A stretch of 64,000 bases of DNA from Bacteroidota bacterium (GCA_006218065.1 VBWE01000012.1:11616-75615); one strand, 5' to 3'. Counted from the first letter of the stretch, positions 13,482-23,823 are shown. Notes: generated by a model from the sequence alone, not told the origin. Numbers and translations are program-made.

Positions 13482-13940
13482 ATGCTACTAATTGATCGGG
13501 AGAAAATGACTATCTCGTTTTTCAACAAATTCAGACAACTGGCCATTTTTGATAATTCGGCCAGTGCACCTGCACTTCATCGCTATTTTGCGCTTCGCCG
13601 TGATGATGAAAGCCAACGATGGGTAATGTTTTCAAGGCAAGCCGGTGAAATAGTAATCAGAATTGAATGTTCAGCTAACGCCCCAGCCGATACTATCCCG
13701 TTTGTCGATTACGATTTTTCGGGTGATGACGGAGATGTCTGGTTTCATAAGGGAGATGCTGATTCGCCATCTATAGTAATAGGCATGGGTGATATTCGGG
13801 GAGGAATTGCTGCCATAGACCAATACAAAATCCAGGAAGATGAAATGCTCATCGTTACCTGCACAGGTGATTTTAGTATTCGTGTGTATTCTTCATCTGT
13901 CCCGAAAGCAAATGACGTAACGGGCACTGACGGGTGTTGA
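13482..13940 (+). CDS. Small beta-rich partner protein 1, next to PAD-like enzyme
   Basis: The 152-residue protein has no signal peptide and no membrane span. Its second half carries the segment V-I-G-M-G-D-I-R-G-G (residues 104-113), which is identical in the paralogue at 16919-17338. The N-termini also match (F-F-N-K-F-R-Q-L-A-I against F-F-N-Q-F-Q-T-I-G-I). Homology starts at the internal Met at residue 9, so that Met (13506) may be the real start. The stop lies 18 bp before the PAD-like gene, suggesting one transcript. Alternating hydrophobic residues suggest a small beta-sandwich. It could be a regulator, chaperone, substrate or detached N-terminal domain of the enzyme; which one is unknown. 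Confidence 0.75.
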   Translation: MLLIDREKMTISFFNKFRQLAIFDNSASAPALHRYFALRRDDESQRWVMFSRQAGEIVIRIECSANAPADTIPFVDYDFSGDDGDVWFHKGDADSPSIVIGMGDIRGGIAAIDQYKIQEDEMLIVTCTGDFSIRVYSSSVPKANDVTGTDGC

Positions 13941-13958
13941 TTCAATTAAAAATTTGAC

Positions 13959-15290
13959 ATGATAACCACTTTTTTAAAACCTGCCCCGTCTATCCATGAC
14001 CACCAGGGACGAATCAGCAAATTCCTCATTTTCGAAACCAGCAATCATCTACTGCCTTATGATAATGACGAAAAAATCGTTTTCGCTGCATTGCGGGAGA
14101 AGTATCGTCCTTTGATTAAAGGCTTTCATGATGTTGATCCCAATAAAGAATTTGTTATTTTTTTCTCCTGCAGCAAGCATGGTAATTACCCTCAACCCTG
14201 GCATGATAGTAAACGAAAAACATGGTTCTTTCCTATTGTTACGAGCAAACGTAGTCCAGCGTTGCCATCGCGATGGGTCCAGGATATCATCGTTTTCGCC
14301 GGCAGTGGACTATTAGGTTTTAACTCTTCTCTTGTTAGCCGGGACCTGGCGTCTGTTCTCGCGGAAAAACTACGCTTGCCGGATTACGATTTCCTACCCG
14401 GGTACATGCAGGGCGGTAATATACTGACCGGTACTTTCGGCGAAAAGCGTTTTTTGCTCATCGGAAAAACAACGACTGAACAGCAGGAACATGCTGATAT
14501 GAGAAGGATTCTCCGTCAGAAGTATTTGTTAAATTGTTACGACAAAGCGACGATGGGGAAGCTTCAAAAAATCTTCTTCCACCTTGATTATTACACAGCA
14601 TTGGTAGGAGGCATTAGTGGTAATGAATGCAATGTTTATCTTCTACAGATTTTTTTTGATCCTGGCAAATCCCTTAATTCGATCCGACCTGAAGGCGATA
14701 TCGTCAAATTACCACAGCAGGCAGGCACAAATCCTGACCCCAAACTGAATTTTGTCGCGATAAAGGTTCCTATTGTCATTTTCCGGAGACCTGCAGCAGT
14801 GAAGAAAGATAAAAACTGGGAACAAGGGATTTCGGATAACGATATTGATTTGGTATTGAGTTATGCCAACTGCCATGTAGAAAACTACATGGATGGGAAA
14901 AAAAATATCATCCGCATTTTCATGCCCGATTTTTCCGATGCAGTTATTCGTTTTTATGAATCCAGGCTGAAATGGGACGAATACCAGGAAGCTTTTGCCG
15001 ACGGACTTGAAATGCTGGAGCATAATTTCAGCCTGTGGAAAAAATCGGGTCCCTCCTCTCCCCGGAGCAGGAAATTTTTCGGTAAACAAGAAGTATACGA
15101 TGTGAATTTTATCCGTGATTTGTTCACAGACATCCAGGAATATACACGTGAGTATATCAAGAAAGAACTCGGGGATAAAACCTTTAACAGAAAAGTATCC
15201 GTCATCTTTATCCCCCACGCGTTCTATGAACTGGCACGCCGCAGCGGCTCCCTGCATTGCATGAGCAAAGTGCTGGAAAGAGACATTTAA
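13959..15290 (+). CDS. Peptidylarginine-deiminase-like enzyme 1 (GME superfamily)
   Basis: The 443-residue protein carries in order the motifs expected of a PAD catalytic domain: R-W-V-Q-D (Asp109), G-G-N (152-154), F-H-L-D (His208, Asp210) and S-L-H-C (Cys434, ten residues from the end). In animal PADs the matching Asp, His, Asp and Cys hydrolyse the guanidinium group of arginine in proteins to give citrulline. Agmatine and free-arginine deiminases share the fold, so the substrate is open, though W-x-Q-D is closest to PADs. There is no signal peptide, so a cytoplasmic location is likely. It follows partner protein 1 by 18 bp, and its stop overlaps the stop of the convergent helical-repeat gene by a few bases. 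A second copy of the pair lies at 16919-18633. Confidence 0.75.
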   Translation: MITTFLKPAPSIHDHQGRISKFLIFETSNHLLPYDNDEKIVFAALREKYRPLIKGFHDVDPNKEFVIFFSCSKHGNYPQPWHDSKRKTWFFPIVTSKRSPALPSRWVQDIIVFAGSGLLGFNSSLVSRDLASVLAEKLRLPDYDFLPGYMQGGNILTGTFGEKRFLLIGKTTTEQQEHADMRRILRQKYLLNCYDKATMGKLQKIFFHLDYYTALVGGISGNECNVYLLQIFFDPGKSLNSIRPEGDIVKLPQQAGTNPDPKLNFVAIKVPIVIFRRPAAVKKDKNWEQGISDNDIDLVLSYANCHVENYMDGKKNIIRIFMPDFSDAVIRFYESRLKWDEYQEAFADGLEMLEHNFSLWKKSGPSSPRSRKFFGKQEVYDVNFIRDLFTDIQEYTREYIKKELGDKTFNRKVSVIFIPHAFYELARRSGSLHCMSKVLERDI

Positions 15291-16783
15291 ACATTTTTTT
15301 CATCTTCTTCCCGAAGCAACCGGCGCATAGTGGTACCTGTGATATGGTAATTTGCCCAGAGCTGCATTTCCGTTCCCGCCGGCAAAGGTGATTCACGACC
15401 GGCACCAAATTCCGTCATTTGTTCAATAAACTTCGCAAATACAGGAATTCGTTCGTCTTCATCCTTTGCAATGAGTTTTTTCAGCAGGCGGGCTACAGCC
15501 GCTTCATACGCGTACCAGATTTTCCGCTGCCGCAGGTACCGTTCCACGTTGATGAGTTCGTACTCCAGCAAGTCGAAGTAAGACAGCTCGAAATACAGTA
15601 CCAGCCGCAGCAGGCGGGCCAGGGCCTGCACATCGGCCCGATGGTCGTTTTTTTCGGAATTGATGATTTTATTGATCCAATCCAGCGCTGTTTTCCAGTC
15701 GTGCAGGCAAAAATAGGTCACGAAAAAATTGTAATAGAACATCAGTTCACGCGCCTTGTTGATCTTGCTCTTGTATTTCTTCAGTCCGCCGACAATTGTT
15801 TTCTCCAGGGCTGGCAATTTTTCAAAAGCATCGGTATTGATCAGGTGTAACAATTCGATGAAATAGATATTCTGGAATTGTTCCGCTTCTTCTTCAGCCG
15901 AATTGCAGGGAATGGATTTTATTTTCTCCAGCAGCGGCGGAATAACGGCAATATCGCCAATGGCGTGACAGGTGGAAAGAAAATTCGACAGCATTTTCTT
16001 GTAGGTAATTGCATCGGCCGAAATCCAGTCCGGGTGCTGCTCCCAGTGATTTACCAGGTCGCTGTAATGTTTCGAAGCTTCTTTCCAGTTGCTTTTATAC
16101 AAGGCATGCAGACTCTTCGTATGCAGCAGGTGATGCCTGCTCATAAAATCCTGTACTTCATCTTCGCGTTCAAGAGCTATTTGCATCAAGGCTTCTGCCC
16201 GCTTCAGTTTTTCTTCATCACGGCTGTTGAACATATTCCGCAGCATATAAAAAAGCTCCTGCCTGTTCTGTCCAAGTTGCGTATGCAGTCCGATTTGTGA
16301 CAAGGCTGCTAAAATTTCCTTATTGCTTTGCACGAAGAGTTCCTTCATGTTTTTCGGATTCTTCTCCAGCAATATCGCCTGCTCCAGTTCCAGCGCCGAA
16401 AGTAATATGGGATAACGGTTGTATTTCAACGCCGATTTCTTCAACCGCTCCAGTTCCGATAAACTCTGATCATACAGGCGCCTGTTGAACAGGAATTCCA
16501 CGTTCATCTGCAGGGAATACAATTCGAGGTTGACCGAAGTTCCTTCGTGATACGACCGTAACGCACGCAGAATGGCCTGGTAGAGATAGAACAATCTTTT
16601 CTCGTCGGATGAAGCGGATTTACCTGTTTTCGTTTTCGCACCGTTTTTGCCTGCAACTGTATTCAATAAATCCAGCAATGCTTTCCCGTCTTCATTTTCT
16701 TTCCCGAGCCAGATACTGATATATCGCTTTTCCTGGGTAGATAATGCCTGGTAAAGCGCATTTACTTTATCCTTGACTGCCAT
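15287..16783 (-). CDS. Helical-repeat protein 1, Bacteroidota family
   Basis: The 498-residue all-helical protein resembles TPR/alpha-solenoid proteins without clean TPR consensus. It starts with the family's typical L-S-T-Q-E-K-R-Y segment (residues 14-21). Conserved blocks shared with the paralogue at 21150-22676 include I-P-C-x-x-x-E-E-E-A-E-Q-F-Q-N and A-R-L-L-R-L-V-L near residue 400. No enzymatic motif or signal peptide is seen. The gene is convergent with PAD-like gene 1 (their stops overlap in TTAA) and divergent from partner protein 2. This family occurs in many Bacteroidota as a hypothetical protein. A scaffolding or regulatory role is inference only. Confidence 0.75.
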   Translation of the reverse strand: MAVKDKVNALYQALSTQEKRYISIWLGKENEDGKALLDLLNTVAGKNGAKTKTGKSASSDEKRLFYLYQAILRALRSYHEGTSVNLELYSLQMNVEFLFNRRLYDQSLSELERLKKSALKYNRYPILLSALELEQAILLEKNPKNMKELFVQSNKEILAALSQIGLHTQLGQNRQELFYMLRNMFNSRDEEKLKRAEALMQIALEREDEVQDFMSRHHLLHTKSLHALYKSNWKEASKHYSDLVNHWEQHPDWISADAITYKKMLSNFLSTCHAIGDIAVIPPLLEKIKSIPCNSAEEEAEQFQNIYFIELLHLINTDAFEKLPALEKTIVGGLKKYKSKINKARELMFYYNFFVTYFCLHDWKTALDWINKIINSEKNDHRADVQALARLLRLVLYFELSYFDLLEYELINVERYLRQRKIWYAYEAAVARLLKKLIAKDEDERIPVFAKFIEQMTEFGAGRESPLPAGTEMQLWANYHITGTTMRRLLREEDEKNV

Positions 16784-16918
16784 AGGTTTATTTACTGTTT
16801 TTCAATTAGTTACTAAAATATACATATAAAACGGACGAATGAAATTACAGGAATAAATGACTTGGTTCGTGGGATTAAATGGTGATTTCTTTGCTGCAAA
16901 CTAAAAAACAAAAACAAT

Positions 16919-17338
16919 ATGGACTATACAATCACATTTTCCTCCGACCTTGGATTGTTCTTTTTTAATCAATTCCAAACGATCGGAATTTACAGTTTTT
17001 CAGAAAAAAAATTTAAACATTGGCACAAACTCTATGATATTGCATCTGAAGTGCCGGTATGCGAAAGAATAAAAATCAGCGGTGATGTACTTTCAATATC
17101 TGCCGTTACAGCGCCCCAGGATCCATCTGATCCTTCCTCGGATTGGATTCCTTATTTCTTTGGTCAGCTTGCTGATGCAGGTGATTGCTGGCTGGAAGGA
17201 GCTGAAATTGTAATCGGCATGGGAGACATCCGTGGTGGTGTTACAAATATTACGATTGACAGATACGCACTGAACAGTGCGAAAACAGTTTATATGACAA
17301 GTAGTGGGCCTTATTGCATAAAGATTCTCGAAGTATAA
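16919..17338 (+). CDS. Small beta-rich partner protein 2, next to PAD-like enzyme
   Basis: The 139-residue paralogue of the protein at 13482-13940 shares the N-terminal F-F-N-x-F segment and the identical V-I-G-M-G-D-I-R-G-G stretch near residues 98-107. The middle parts have diverged strongly, so this is an old duplication or a separate gain. It has no signal peptide. The stop is 23 bp before the second PAD-like gene, repeating the order seen in module 1. Codon use and base composition are more A+T-rich than in module 1. Confidence 0.75.
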   Translation: MDYTITFSSDLGLFFFNQFQTIGIYSFSEKKFKHWHKLYDIASEVPVCERIKISGDVLSISAVTAPQDPSDPSSDWIPYFFGQLADAGDCWLEGAEIVIGMGDIRGGVTNITIDRYALNSAKTVYMTSSGPYCIKILEV

Positions 17339-17361
17339 CTAATTACTCAAACACCTTCTGT

Positions 17362-18633
17362 ATGAATAGTCAACTTGCTTCCCAGGGGCAGATCAGTAGA
17401 ATATTGATTGCTGATTGTTTAGGGCAGGAAAACCCTGATACGGTTTATGATGAACTTTTAAATACGTACCGGGATTTTTTAGCAGAGTTCGGAAATTTTC
17501 ACCCGGTAGACATATTTGTTCTTTTTGATCTGCAGGGAAGCAAGACTATTTCTCTGGAGAAGGTAAAATGTCTTGATAAACTGGGAAACGGTTCATCTCT
17601 CTTCGCAATATGCGTAAATTATGATGATCCCGGATGTACACTGAACACGTTATGGATACAAGACGTTTTACTTACAATACGGGATAATACTTGTCTTTTT
17701 GACCCAAGTCAGTCCATTCCAGATGGTCAAGTCGGAACATTTGGACTGGGAGAAAAACAGGCCCAATCAATTATGAGTTCAATACCTGGATTTACTATAA
17801 CTACAGGTAAATTGCCCTGTGCTGGTGGCAACCTCTTACTCGGGCGAGTTAATGAAATAAATTATGGCTTTACGGGTGCCAATGATCCCACTACACTCAA
17901 AAATATATGCAGCCAATTTGACATTGCCCCGGAATACTTGTTTTCACCAATGTCAGTAATTATTCGAAATGATCCGCACCTCTTTCATGTTGATCGTTTT
18001 ATTACTATCGTTGGTTCTACTTTAAAAGAAAAAAATAAACACCTTTTATTGTTTGCACAACCGGAACTAGCAGACCCTCAAAATGCAATACCCAATGAAA
18101 CAATTACAATTCTAAATGCTATCGAGCAAGAATTACTTGGCTTTATAAAAACTACGGGCTTACCGCTTATAGTTGAAAAAATCCCTCTTCTTTTCACAAA
18201 TTTTGCATCAAGAACAATATCGTTGTCATTTAACAACAGTGTTGTTGAAAACAACTTTCTACCCGAAGCACCATCTCCAGTAATTTATTTCCCAAAGTAT
18301 AACCGAACCGCTTATTCACATGTAAACAAAAAAAGCGACTCTGAATTAATTCAGTTCTACGGCGACGAAAAAATAATTAACGATGCATCCGGAGAGGATG
18401 AATTTAATGACCATCCTGTTTTCAAAAGGAACGAGTTTCTCAATAAAATAAGGCTAGAGCTTTGCATTGAGGCAGATGCTGCTATAGCAAATGCTGTCAA
18501 AAAAATTATGGCGACTCTTTCAAAGTATAAAATTCCTAAGGATCATATACGTTTTATTGATTACAATTTCCGAAAGCCGTCCAGTCGCGGAGGTGCTTTA
18601 CATTGTCTGACCAAAGTAATTAAACGCAATTAA
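17362..18633 (+). CDS. Peptidylarginine-deiminase-like enzyme 2 (GME superfamily)
   Basis: The chosen ATG at 17362 gives 423 residues. The longer frame needs a TTG inside the upstream gene, and the ATG start lines up with enzyme 1 (Q-G-Q-I-S-R against Q-G-R-I-S-K). Catalytic motifs are all present: W-I-Q-D (Asp101), G-G-N (155-157), F-H-V-D (His209, Asp211) and G-G-A-L-H-C (Cys415, eight residues from the end). The spacing matches enzyme 1 and the PAD catalytic domain, but the N-terminal Ig-like domains of animal PADs are missing. Arginine deimination is therefore the expected chemistry; the substrate is unknown. It is preceded by its small partner and followed after 88 bp by a membrane protein on the same strand. 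Confidence 0.75.
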   Translation: MNSQLASQGQISRILIADCLGQENPDTVYDELLNTYRDFLAEFGNFHPVDIFVLFDLQGSKTISLEKVKCLDKLGNGSSLFAICVNYDDPGCTLNTLWIQDVLLTIRDNTCLFDPSQSIPDGQVGTFGLGEKQAQSIMSSIPGFTITTGKLPCAGGNLLLGRVNEINYGFTGANDPTTLKNICSQFDIAPEYLFSPMSVIIRNDPHLFHVDRFITIVGSTLKEKNKHLLLFAQPELADPQNAIPNETITILNAIEQELLGFIKTTGLPLIVEKIPLLFTNFASRTISLSFNNSVVENNFLPEAPSPVIYFPKYNRTAYSHVNKKSDSELIQFYGDEKIINDASGEDEFNDHPVFKRNEFLNKIRLELCIEADAAIANAVKKIMATLSKYKIPKDHIRFIDYNFRKPSSRGGALHCLTKVIKRN

Positions 18634-18721: not shown

Positions 18722-19318
18722 ATGATCAGCTACTGGATTTTTTTCTGCCTCTTTATTGCACTGCTGCTTTTTCTCGAAAAAAGCGGAGGAATATTCCGTG
18801 ATTCGAGCAACTTACTTCCGACCGGTGGAAAGAAGCCGTTCAGTTTATCCAGGATATTGCTCGCCTGGTGGGTGCTGATCATTCTGCCTGGGTTTACAGC
18901 CATTTTGATCGGTACAGGTTTTATTCCTGTGCTCAGCAGTCAAATGCTCGTATTGCTCGGTGTAAGCGGCGGCACTACCCTCATATCCCGGGTGGTTGAT
19001 GCAGTCGACCTCCAAACCGCACAGGCCGCAGGTGCCAATCCACGAAGCATCGACAATCCTTCGGCCGGTTTCTGGAAAGATATTCTTTCCGATAACGGCG
19101 GCATAAATATTCACCGAGTTCTCTCGGTGCTGACTAACCTCATCGTCGGGAGCTGGATGATTGTGACTTTCTGTATTAACCTGCAGCATATACCCGAAAC
19201 GCCTATGCAGGCCGATGCGAATAACCTTCTTCCGCAAATAGAAACCGCAACGCTGGTCCTGTTGGGAATAAGTGCAGGGATTTACACGACTGTCAAGGCG
19301 ACGGAAAACCGGGCCTGA
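18722..19318 (+). CDS. Small multi-span membrane protein
   Basis: The 198-residue protein has hydrophobic segments near residues 2-20, 43-70, 75-90, 134-155 and 176-192. The last one reads L-V-L-L-G-I-S-A-G-I-Y, and a similar L-V-L-L-G-V-S-G-G-T-T segment lies near residue 78, so the protein may contain two related halves. No catalytic motif is visible. It is on the same strand as PAD-like enzyme 2 and may be co-transcribed with it and with the following two genes. Function is unknown. Confidence 0.7.
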   Translation: MISYWIFFCLFIALLLFLEKSGGIFRDSSNLLPTGGKKPFSLSRILLAWWVLIILPGFTAILIGTGFIPVLSSQMLVLLGVSGGTTLISRVVDAVDLQTAQAAGANPRSIDNPSAGFWKDILSDNGGINIHRVLSVLTNLIVGSWMIVTFCINLQHIPETPMQADANNLLPQIETATLVLLGISAGIYTTVKATENRA

Positions 19319-19460
19319 CCAGATAATATCTCAAAGCGGAGAAGCCGAAAACAGAAGAGATAGTTATTCTAATCGGCCTAGTACACATGCAAGGAAATAA
19401 GGACACATAGTAATACATGCATTGATCATAACAATTATATCTCACCTAAAAACAAATCAC

Positions 19461-19811
19461 ATGCCTATCGAACGAGTAAACAAAACAGAACAATATGAAC
19501 TCGGCACCGGATCGCTTCAACTCCGCGCCTGGGTCGGGTACAACCAATTTGGAACCATCAGCGCGTGGCTGAACCAGCAGCCACTTGGCACTGCAAACAG
19601 TCTTGACAAAACAATTGGACCGGTTAAACAACTTTCCGGGAAGCGGCTTGTGGTAATCAGTACTGTTCAAGACATTATGGCCAGTACCAACACGACCAGT
19701 ATAACCATTGAATTGAGCGACGGTACAAACTCCAAAACCTACACCTATACACAAGCCGTTTCTGTCAATGGTGGCGCCGTTATCTACAGTATTATCATAA
19801 ACCTTATCTGA
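19461..19811 (+). CDS. Small beta-rich protein of unknown function
   Basis: The ATG at 19461 gives 116 residues. A start 13 codons upstream would add a segment with no sign of conservation. The sequence is rich in Thr, Ser, Asn and alternating hydrophobics, without a signal peptide. Its segment L-S-G-K-R-L-V-V-I-S-T-V-Q-D is loosely reminiscent of small beta proteins that accompany surface or tail-like structures, but I cannot assign a family. Its stop codon is one base before the start of the outer-membrane protein gene, so the two are tightly coupled. Confidence 0.6.
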   Translation: MPIERVNKTEQYELGTGSLQLRAWVGYNQFGTISAWLNQQPLGTANSLDKTIGPVKQLSGKRLVVISTVQDIMASTNTTSITIELSDGTNSKTYTYTQAVSVNGGAVIYSIIINLI

Positions 19812-19812
19812 C

Positions 19813-21054
19813 ATGAAAAATTTCTTCTTCTGTATCCTGTGTACGTGTATTGTTCGAAACAGCCATGCACAAATAAACATAACCGGCACATCGAGCCAGG
19901 CTTTACCGGCTTTTTTCATCATCGATAAAGAACCTAAATCGGTAGCGACACCGAGCAATCCTCGGAAACTCGCTGCCAGTATTTTGAATGCATTTGATCA
20001 AGAAGGAGGATTTAACCCTGATGTTGGTATTGAATTTGCTCCTTATTGGCTGAGAGATAGCAGCAGGATTTCATTACCCACTCCCAACCCAGGACAACAG
20101 TATATACCAGCAGCCTTCCAGAGTCTTGCATTTTCCATTGCCTCTGCGGAAGAAAAGAAAATCAACTCGGATATTTCCGGGCGAGTAATTGGTTTGGGAT
20201 TTCGGATACATCCAGCATTACGGATCAATGTTTCAACCGCTCAAAATGTACGTAATATGACTAGAAATGGTACCTTAATAAATATCATCCAATTTGTCTC
20301 TTTACAAGCGGCATTCAACAATATGTTAAACCAAAATGCAATTGTTACTCAGATCAGGGATCAAATAAATATTCAGTACGCAACTGACCTTGATGCCCGG
20401 GTTTTGTATAACACTTATCTTGATCGTATGGTTCAAAAAACACCAATGACTGCAAACGAAAACGCTACAGCGTACATTCAACGTTTACAGGATGCAATGG
20501 TAATGAACGTAAACATTTCTCAAGAAAAATTATATGACAATAATAGCAATAGACGTAAATTCAACTGGGAAGTAGCGGGCGCAACCGGTATGCGCTTTCC
20601 CACGAATGAAATCGGCTTTAGTTACCTGTCCCGAGTTGGCATTTGGACAAGTGTCTCTTATAGCATAGGAGGAAACAACAATCGTCGGGTTTGCTCTTTC
20701 AACGGAATGGCCCGCATCCTCTCCTCCTTTACAGATTCAATTACGACAAACTATGATGCCGGCATAAGCTTTACCGGCAAATGGTGGCCCAGCCTGCCAT
20801 TTTCGCTCGAATTTGTCGGGCGGCGTTATGTCTATGAATATGATGATATCAACCAGGCCGGCGATACCATTAACCGTATTGACCGCAAGAATACTTACCG
20901 TCTTGCACTTACTGCCGACTTTGCTATTGACGAAGACCTTTCATTGAATTTCACATTCGGAAGAGACTATGACAAGCCTTTCCAAACTTCTGGCAATCTT
21001 CTCGGTATCATCGGATTGAACTATACGTTTGGAACGAGGAATAAGTTGAGATAG
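19813..21054 (+). CDS. Putative outer-membrane beta-barrel protein
   Basis: The 413-residue protein starts with a signal peptide (Phe/Cys-rich core, cleavage after S-H-A at about residue 19). The first half is soluble-looking. The second half (from about residue 245) has alternating strands with Gly/aromatic residues. The end, G-I-I-G-L-N-Y-T-F-G followed by T-R-N-K-L-R, resembles barrel C-terminal strands. The protein follows the small beta-rich protein gene by one base, so they are probably translated together. A hairpin terminator sits 20 bp after its stop. It may be the surface component of the accessory locus, but the ligand or cargo is unknown. Confidence 0.65.
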   Translation: MKNFFFCILCTCIVRNSHAQINITGTSSQALPAFFIIDKEPKSVATPSNPRKLAASILNAFDQEGGFNPDVGIEFAPYWLRDSSRISLPTPNPGQQYIPAAFQSLAFSIASAEEKKINSDISGRVIGLGFRIHPALRINVSTAQNVRNMTRNGTLINIIQFVSLQAAFNNMLNQNAIVTQIRDQINIQYATDLDARVLYNTYLDRMVQKTPMTANENATAYIQRLQDAMVMNVNISQEKLYDNNSNRRKFNWEVAGATGMRFPTNEIGFSYLSRVGIWTSVSYSIGGNNNRRVCSFNGMARILSSFTDSITTNYDAGISFTGKWWPSLPFSLEFVGRRYVYEYDDINQAGDTINRIDRKNTYRLALTADFAIDEDLSLNFTFGRDYDKPFQTSGNLLGIIGLNYTFGTRNKLR

Positions 21055-21074: not shown

Positions 21075-21112
21075 AAACACCGCAACTCAGTATCCCCTTG
21101 GTTGCGGTGTTT
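21075..21112 (+). terminator. Hairpin terminator after outer-membrane protein gene
   Basis: Perfect 12-bp arms, AAACACCGCAAC and GTTGCGGTGTTT, enclose a 14-base loop. It ends the run of co-directional genes from 16919 to 21054 and precedes helical-repeat gene 2. Confidence 0.7.
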
Positions 21113-21149
21113 ATCCATAAACTGCATTGACATTTCAAGACCCGTTGCC

Positions 21150-22676
21150 ATGTCCAAAACCGATACGCTCTTCGAATTAGTAAGCTCTTTGTCCACTGCC
21201 GAAAAACGCTACATAGGTGTATTTTCGAAAAAGCACCAGGTAAATGATTACCTCAATCTGTTTGGAAAGGTGTCAACTCAAGCGAAAAAAATCAAGAAGA
21301 ATACCGGAGAAAATTCCAAAAATCTAAAGCGGTTAAAGATAAACTCCTCCGAGAAAAACTACATCTACTCCTTCATCCTGAAAGCCCTCCGTTCTTTCCA
21401 CGAATCACGAAACGTGGATATCGCCATCCGCGAAATGCTGATCAACGCCGGGCTGCTGCTGGAGAAACGCTTGTTTAAGCAAAGTCTGAAAATGTTGCAG
21501 CGGGCAAAGAAACAGGTCATGGGTTTTGACCGTCACCTGCTACTGGCTGAGATAATCCAGATGGAAATCCAGGTGATCGTGGAAATCTCCGGCAAAGATG
21601 CGCTCCTGCATTTCGATTCACTGACCGAAGCATTCGGTTCTGTAATCGGTTTATACCCGAATGAGCTGGCCGCAGCTTCGCTCCAGCAACGTATCCGGCT
21701 CCTGCAGCGCAGGCACGAAAGGCTGCCGCAATCCAAACAATGGAAATACAGTGAACAATTGGATTCGTTGCTGGCGCTTGCCAAAAGCACGCGCAATTTT
21801 TCTTTGCTGCATAACAGCCTTTTTGCCCGGGCCATGTTCAACCATTCGCTTGGCCGTTTTGCAGGTTCCGCCGCAGTGTATGAAGAACTGATTGCTTTGT
21901 GGGAAACACGTCCCGACCGTATCCGGGGTGAAAACATGCTGTTCAAAAAAATCATTTTCAATTACCTGATTGCCTGTCACCGCCTCGAACGTTTCGATGT
22001 TTACCCGCCTATGATCGGCCGCATCCGGGCTATTCCCTGCACCAACACGGAAGAAGAAGCCGAACAATTCCAGAACCTGCAGATGATGGAACTGCTTTTA
22101 CTTATGAACACCGACGGCTATGATCAACTTCCGCGCATAGAAGCGGAAATAAGTGCAGGGTTGAGGCAATACAGGAACAAGATCAACAAAGCGCATGAAC
22201 TGGCATTTTATCACAATATCGCGATGGCGCATTTTCTCTGCGAAGACTGGAAATCGTCGATGGGGTGGATTGAAAAAATCATGCTGGAAAAAAAATCACA
22301 GCAGCGTATCGACCTGCAGTGCTTCGCCCGCTTGCTGCGTCTTGTACTCTGGTACGAAACCGGGAAATATGATCTCCTGGAATATGAAACCATCAATGCG
22401 CAACGCTACCTGCGCAAAAATGGCGGCTGGACTGTGTTCGAATCCACTGTAACCAAACTCGTAGCCAGGTTACCGGCAATTCCGGCTGAGGAAAAGCCGG
22501 TACTGTTCCGCAAAGCTTTCCACCAGCTTCAGAAAATAAAAGAAAACACGGAAACGGCAGGTGTGCCGGGACTTGATGAACTGATCTGCTGGATGCAAAG
22601 TCATCTGGAGGGAATCACCATACGGGAAGTAATGAAGATTGAGAACAACAAATCAGTTCCCGGTTCTAAAAAATAA
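21150..22676 (+). CDS. Helical-repeat protein 2, paralogue of 15287-16783
   Basis: The ATG at 21150 gives 508 residues and lines up with the start of the paralogue (L-S-T-A-E-K-R-Y at residues 14-21). A longer frame runs back into the terminator hairpin and is rejected. The protein is helical throughout, with the shared blocks I-P-C-T-N-T-E-E-E-A-E-Q-F-Q-N, K-I-N-K-A-H-E-L, and A-R-L-L-R-L-V-L followed by D-L-L-E-Y-E. No enzymatic motif or membrane span is present. It has its own leader after a terminator and its own terminator behind it, so it is a separate transcription unit. Having two copies around the PAD-like modules suggests a linked role, but the family is also common elsewhere in the phylum. 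Confidence 0.75.
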   Translation: MSKTDTLFELVSSLSTAEKRYIGVFSKKHQVNDYLNLFGKVSTQAKKIKKNTGENSKNLKRLKINSSEKNYIYSFILKALRSFHESRNVDIAIREMLINAGLLLEKRLFKQSLKMLQRAKKQVMGFDRHLLLAEIIQMEIQVIVEISGKDALLHFDSLTEAFGSVIGLYPNELAAASLQQRIRLLQRRHERLPQSKQWKYSEQLDSLLALAKSTRNFSLLHNSLFARAMFNHSLGRFAGSAAVYEELIALWETRPDRIRGENMLFKKIIFNYLIACHRLERFDVYPPMIGRIRAIPCTNTEEEAEQFQNLQMMELLLLMNTDGYDQLPRIEAEISAGLRQYRNKINKAHELAFYHNIAMAHFLCEDWKSSMGWIEKIMLEKKSQQRIDLQCFARLLRLVLWYETGKYDLLEYETINAQRYLRKNGGWTVFESTVTKLVARLPAIPAEEKPVLFRKAFHQLQKIKENTETAGVPGLDELICWMQSHLEGITIREVMKIENNKSVPGSKK

Positions 22677-23362: not shown

Positions 23363-23610
23363 TTTTTTTAGCTTCAGGCCAGCCCGCAGCGCAAGACGAT
23401 TTCCCTACGCAGTAAATACAAAACGCCATCCGCTTAAAAGCGAATGGCGTTGATCTCGTAGCCCGTAGGAGGACGAAGCGTTAAGAAAAAGCCCAGTGGG
23501 CTTTTTTAGCTTCGGTCCAGCCTGCAGCGCAAGGCGATTCCCCTACGCAGTAAATACAAAACGCCATCCGCTGAAAAGCGAATGGCGTTGATTTAGTAGC
23601 CCGTAGGGGA
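23363..23610. repeat. 138-bp direct repeat including the tRNA-Glu 3' end and its terminator
   Basis: Two copies, at 23363-23472 and 23501-23610, are offset by exactly 138 bp and differ at a few positions. Each holds the terminator hairpin (arms starting AACGCCAT and ending ATGGCGTT) and the last 13-15 bases of the tRNA-Glu gene. Only the right copy is attached to a whole tRNA. Between them lies a small AGCCCA/TGGGCT hairpin with flanking A and T runs (about 23485-23508). Confidence 0.8.
23560..23589 (-). terminator. Terminator of tRNA-Glu
   Basis: On the minus strand the hairpin (arms AACGCCATTCGC and GCGGATGGCGTT) is followed by TTTGT and lies just after the tRNA 3' end. A second copy at 23422-23451 belongs to the 138-bp repeat. 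Confidence 0.75.
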
Positions 23611-23668
23611 ATCGAACCCCTGTTACCAGAATGAAAATCTGATGTCCTAACCCCTAGACGAACGGGCC
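23597..23668 (-). tRNA. tRNA-Glu (anticodon UUC)
   Basis: The minus-strand sequence starts GGCCCGT and ends ACGGGCT plus discriminator A, giving a 7-bp acceptor stem with one G-U pair. The anticodon stem encloses the loop TTTTCAT, with anticodon TTC at positions 34-36. The T-arm contains GGTTCGATTCC. No CCA is encoded. Its 3' end faces the accessory region at 13-23 kb. Confidence 0.95.
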
Positions 23669-23823
23669 ATAATATATAAGAACGCTATTCAATCACTTCG
23701 AACCTGTCCGCCGAAGCCGCCTCGGGCGGAGCAGGTGGACGGGCCATAATATATAAGAACGTTATTCAATCACTTCGAACCTGTCCGCCGAAGCCGCCTG
23801 AAGCGGAGTAAGTGGACGGGCCA
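23664..23823. repeat. 77-bp tandem repeat on the 5' side of tRNA-Glu
   Basis: The segment starting GGGCCATAATATATAAG recurs at 23664, 23741 and 23818, a period of 77 bp; the last copy is short. Each unit contains the first bases of the tRNA gene and an imperfect hairpin with CCTGTCCGCC and GGCGGA arms. A related AACCTGTCCGCCG word also occurs at about 23325. Confidence 0.8.

Follow-up and report, generated by a model that had tools for sequence, protein, structure and literature searches.

The window analysed, a stretch of 64,000 nucleotides from a Bacteroidota bacterium, carried two modules, each made up of a small open reading frame (ORF) followed by a gene for a predicted GME hydrolase. 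The small proteins are called P1 and P2, and the enzymes E1 and E2. The features of the locus were as follows:

13482-13940, plus strand: P1, small ORF of 152 aa with the motif GMGDIRGG, partner of module 1
13959-15290, plus strand: E1, GME hydrolase of 443 aa, identity by sequence
15287-16783, minus strand: BT2802-type TPR protein of 498 aa (NF058569 at 1.8e-35, below the curated cut-off)
16919-17338, plus strand: P2, small ORF of 139 aa with the motif GMGDIRGG, partner of module 2
17362-18633, plus strand: E2, GME hydrolase of 423 aa from the first ATG, identity by sequence
18722-19318, plus strand: 198-aa protein with hydrophobic segments, 3' of E2, no family match in Pfam or NCBIfam; at most a possible member of the module
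19422-19811, plus strand: small protein of 129 aa, similarity to P1/P2 not detected
19813-21054, plus strand: protein of 413 aa, apparently with a signal peptide and perhaps forming an outer-membrane barrel; at most a possible member of the module
21102-22676, plus strand: second BT2802-type TPR protein, 524 aa (NF058569 at 1.3e-33), orientation opposite to that of the first

The original prediction of two enzymes of 443 and 423 residues, each directly 3' of a small paralogous protein, was borne out by intact ORFs at these places. The spacing was 18 bases from P1 to E1 and 23 bases from P2 to E2, and an alternative TTG start of E2 at 17314 would overlap P2. The modules had also been described as tandem. 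Two modules were indeed present, but they were not adjacent, because the reverse-strand TPR gene at 15287-16783 lay between them. This gene was convergent with E1, whose end it overlapped by 4 bases, and divergent from P2, with 135 bases between its start and P2. The G+C content from about 12.5 to 21.5 kb was 38-47%, against mostly 49-57% in the flanks on both sides, and this stretch therefore looks like an accessory block. In addition, a 121-nt inverted repeat (70%) was observed between the two TPR genes flanking module 2 (15663-15783 and 22162-22282). At the tRNA-Glu gene adjoining the low-GC block (23364-23815), there were tandem duplications (a 106-nt pair and a 77-nt pair, 92% identity). 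No matching repeat indicating integration at tRNA-Glu was found across the block. The 129-aa ORF at 19422 was rejected as a third partner, its similarity to P1/P2 being undetectable. An outer-membrane gene common to the regions downstream of module 2 and of a sister-genome copy (G002:C24) was also rejected, as the downstream genes were not similar.

The PAD-type motifs W-[VI]-Q-D, GGN, FHxD and LHC had been reported in this order for both enzymes, and all were found. They were located in E1 at 106-109 (WVQD), 152-154 (GGN), 207-210 (FHLD) and 432-434 (LHC), and in E2 at 98-101 (WIQD), 155-157 (GGN), 208-211 (FHVD) and 413-415 (LHC). The active site was aligned over 15 rows, consisting of 12 clade members (E1 and E2 included) and three canonical PPAD-like proteins. 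The catalytic residues by alignment were D109, H208, D210, N304 and C434 in E1, and D101, H209, D211, N292 and C415 in E2. The equivalents of PPAD D130, H236, D238, N297 and C351, which are all essential in PPAD mutants (PMC4487231), were invariant in 15 of 15 rows. Cys434 and Cys415 aligned with the invariant C351 position, so their proposal as the catalytic cysteines was right. As judged from sequence, E1 and E2 are GME-superfamily hydrolases with a complete catalytic set. Both guanidine-binding Asp residues (of WxQD and HxD) were kept in the two enzymes, whereas CtlX, a putative citrullinase (NF046062) that is likewise a GME-type hydrolase, has Asn at both positions (PMC9007349). Given this difference, a guanidine is a better guess for the substrate of E1 and E2 than a ureido compound. 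AlphaFold2 models of E2 and P1, from shallow alignments of only three sequences, had a mean pLDDT of 36-38, too low to be of use; the model consulted for the five-bladed alpha/beta propeller fold of the GME superfamily had 36.5.

No Pfam or NCBIfam model matched E1 or E2 above its cut-off, and no PDB relative was found by sequence or profile search. A comparison of the enzymes with PF03068, the family of the vertebrate-type PADs, had been proposed, and membership of this family was not borne out. The PF03068 profile did not match E1 or E2 at E<=1 or any protein of the genome at E<=0.01, and the PAD N-terminal and middle domains were not found by Pfam scan in these proteins of 423-443 aa. PF03068 enzymes (vertebrate and cyanobacterial type) have equivalent residues at the superfamily level, namely D350, H471, D473, N588 and C645 in PAD4 (PMC4487231), but no partner gene is described for them in the cited literature. 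The distant hits of the clade were to PF04371 (PAD_porph), the agmatine deiminase/PPAD family. Against its cut-off of 25 bits, E1 and E2 gave no match, a paralogue in the same genome (G000:C12) reached 17.7 bits, and the Vibrio relative passed with 39.5 bits. For the arginine deiminase family PF02274 (cut-off 22.8 bits), E1 scored 12.8 bits and E2 had no match.

The first enzyme alignment comprised the G000:C12 copy, G002:C24 and the C12 orthologues in G004 and G002. Starting from a distant standalone relative in G041, tblastn then picked up relatives on plasmids of Paenibacillus polymyxa, Vibrio maritimus, Aureispira, Rhizobium daejeonense and Neorhizobium. Furthermore, E2 had a tblastn match (8e-5) to a Rhizobium protein annotated as 'agmatine deiminase family protein'. 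In profile-profile comparison, the window-type enzymes matched the wider clade at E=6.8e-33, the wider clade matched the canonical PPAD-like proteins of the lineage itself at 2.3e-9, and the window-type enzymes matched these directly at 1.8e-4; a DDAH/CtlX-type control gave 0.53. HMMs built on the other members recovered E1 (4.5e-31), E2 (7.7e-33), P1 (2.7e-14) and P2 (2.7e-13). Over all members, such leave-one-out profiles recovered every partner at <=1.7e-8 and every enzyme at <=4.5e-31. The resemblance is therefore not due to chance. With these profile matches of the relatives and the lack of a PF03068 match in the genome, the clade is placed as a divergent one, next to PF04371 but below its cut-off, and apart from the vertebrate-type PADs. 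In a published phylogeny, pPAD and PADI were phyletically distinct (PMC8826395).

E1 and E2 share with PF04371 enzymes the D/H/D/N/C set and the GGN, SYxN and G[AS][LI]HC motifs, and the relationship by profile comparison is that of distant homologues. Unlike PPAD, they lack a signal peptide, an Ig-like domain and a T9SS tail, and they are co-encoded with a small partner. No hydrophobic stretch or signal peptide was seen at their N-termini, and no T9SS sorting domain was matched in the Pfam and NCBIfam scans. Moreover, the carboxylate clamp of PPAD (R152/R154, in YNRPRP), which grips the main chain of peptidyl-arginine, was replaced by a gap in E1, and no Arg was present there in E2. A PPAD-like grip on peptides is thereby made less likely. 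The lineage also has a PPAD-like protein with a T9SS sorting tail, which scored about 150 bits for PF04371 in sister genomes (L034, L035, L036). Its best PDB match was PPAD 4yt9 (1.4e-39) and its YNRPRP clamp was kept, so that a secreted enzyme of the PPAD type occurs outside Porphyromonas. The G000 version of this protein was apparently split over two contig ends (G000:C20:240506-241102 and G000:C22:66-341; L037, L039).

The lack of the peptide clamp in E1 and E2 would fit an enzyme acting on a small molecule (free arginine, agmatine or another guanidine), with the partner as a stabilising or regulatory subunit and a specialised metabolic role. The nearest curated family also includes agmatine deiminases, and one clade member adjoins the citrullinase gene ctlX. 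However, the agmatine deiminase (AguA) model TIGR03380, with an equivalog cut-off of 381.8 bits, did not match E1 or E2. In addition, rapid divergence, a low-GC accessory location and multiple copies would be unusual for housekeeping metabolism. This explanation is a serious possibility, though short of an even chance.

P1 and P2 were true paralogues, with 26% identity and a BLASTP E-value of 1e-11. The partner family was detected in 3 of 395 genomes of the class, which were exactly the genomes with window-type enzymes (the searches combined a loose prefilter with phylum samples, and such counts are lower bounds). All six partner copies were directly 5' of an enzyme gene. The module of a small partner and then an enzyme thus occurred at six loci in three genomes, three of them in this genome and three in two sister genomes. 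Within the genomes searched, the partner was exclusively linked to the window-type enzyme, and the genes for partner and enzyme together form a rare, reusable unit. Two scans of a genome contigs collection gave no match in the first and only the sister genome itself in the second. The C12 module and its orthologues shared one genomic position in three genomes, which suggests that one copy has been vertically kept. Nearby are a glycogen-synthase-like gene and panC, as named from our reading of the translations. Beyond the C12 module, the window copies and G002:C24 were extra.

The strict one-to-one linkage might also mean that the partner is the dedicated protein substrate of the enzyme, the arginine of its GDxRGG loop being deiminated in a self-contained protein-citrullination unit. 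This arginine was kept in five of the six partners. It was replaced in the G000:C12 partner, yet the C12 enzyme was intact, and no arginine was common to all six partners, which weakens this explanation. The absence of R152/R154 from E1 and E2 also counts against it, as do the enzymes of G041, Vibrio and Paenibacillus, for which no partner homologue was detected. A clade member in a YcaO-TfuA operon (see below) is in its favour. On balance, the partner is rather unlikely to be the substrate in this way.

The locus had been regarded as duplicated. E1 and E2 were distant homologues (21% identity, E=3e-6), and each scored higher against G002:C24 than against the other. A recent tandem duplication was therefore not supported. 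In the enzyme tree, branches were very long and E1 and E2 were not resolved as sisters, while the tree of the small partners left P1 and P2 together. By identity and score, the E1/E2 pair reflects an old divergence or separate acquisition.

At all modules but one (module 1 of the window), so at five of six, the partner had a BT2802-type TPR gene as its divergent neighbour, and the same TPR layout was found at the Aureispira locus. There were about 35 BT2802-type TPR genes in this genome of 5.26 Mb, among about 4,400 genes in all. Chance alone would accordingly put such a neighbour beside roughly one percent of genes. Judging from position, the protein encoded by the divergent TPR gene is a candidate for regulating the unit. 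The TPR genes were scattered (L040-L069), many adjoined genes for secreted proteins, and several of the latter had T9SS-like tails. The set seems to be an expanded family of companions or regulators, each specific to its position.

Outside the module, relatives of E1 and E2 were found in several gene contexts. Members of the clade are annotated as 'agmatine deiminase family protein' or 'hypothetical protein' (WP_234497993.1, WP_163897480.1 and WP_014600260.1). They belong to the same clade as E1 and E2 by profile but differ in their contexts (YcaO-TfuA, nuclease, TIR/CRISPR) and in the absence of a detected partner homologue. On plasmids of Rhizobium and Neorhizobium, the operon order was small ORF, YcaO, TfuA and GME (L032 975-4508; L033 3219-6723). 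The Rhizobium YcaO and TfuA proteins matched the families of McrA thioglycine thioamidation, below the cut-offs of those families. YcaO-TfuA pairs thioamidate ribosomal peptides (PMC13174530), and this neighbourhood points to a peptide substrate there. No homology was detected between the rhizobial small ORFs and the P1/P2 partner family, so the analogy with peptide modification may not carry over to the modules. The plasmid operon is itself a possible uncharacterised peptide-modification cluster, in which no typical precursor was seen. In G041, the clade member was 43 bp upstream of ctlX (NF046062, 426 bits) on the same strand (L017 3809-6281), as would be expected if citrulline were the product. 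Two GME-type enzymes were apparently in one operon in this case.

The Aureispira relative was located on a plasmid between CRISPR III-B and TIR genes, the Vibrio relative had a pyocin-domain gene nearby, and the Paenibacillus relative had a trypsin-endonuclease fusion downstream. The score of the upstream small neighbour in Aureispira against the partner (5.1) was reached by 6 of 946 shuffles, and that of the downstream one by 85 of 887. Neither was counted as a partner homologue, the upstream protein being suggestive at best. The Aureispira and Vibrio surroundings, together with the small-plus-large two-gene form, the rarity and the strong divergence, could fit a conflict module (toxin-antitoxin or anti-phage), with an enzyme that would deplete arginine or modify it and a partner that would keep this enzyme in check. 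No match was found in viral contigs, phages, PADLOC or PHROGs, and no relative was phage-encoded. The shared position of the C12 copy in three genomes suggests instead that its role has been maintained by vertical descent, and a conflict module is improbable. No single gene context explains the whole clade.

Compared with these explanations, each module probably encodes a thiol hydrolase of the GME superfamily that acts in the cytoplasm on a guanidinium group (of the arginine to citrulline type), together with a dedicated small partner. The placement in the cytoplasm is suggested because a signal peptide was not seen. We infer this activity, and a guanidine substrate, for both E1 and E2. In such a hydrolase, the guanidinium would be held between the two aspartates of the enzyme, and the C-terminal cysteine, aided by the histidine and the asparagine, would attack it. 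Ammonia would leave, and, if the analogy with PPAD applies, a covalent intermediate of the thiouronium type would form. Water would then release the ureido product, so that an arginine-type compound would become a citrulline-type one. The partner may be a dedicated substrate, a presenter or a regulator. The substrate may be a peptide or protein, perhaps the partner, or else a small guanidine in free form. The YcaO-TfuA operons speak for peptides, and the proximity to ctlX speaks for citrulline as the product. If the substrate were a peptide, the closest functional analogue would be the PAD of the lasso peptide citrulassin in Streptomyces, likened here by function. The gene for that PAD lies outside the peptide cluster (PMC12971885), whereas the window-type partner was always adjacent to its enzyme. 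A previously undescribed, self-contained module of bacterial protein citrullination, in which the cytoplasmic enzyme modifies or is delivered by the small partner and the clade has also been recruited into YcaO-TfuA operons, is an unlikely form of this proposal.

Protein or peptide citrullination in bacteria is known experimentally from few cases, such as PPAD and the citrulassin PAD. With its catalytic set, its linked partner, and its peptide-operon and citrullinase contexts, the clade offers a system in which dedicated deimination of arginine inside the cell can be tested directly. It is also a named annotation target to replace 'hypothetical protein'. The module could be a previously undescribed bacterial way of modifying arginine.
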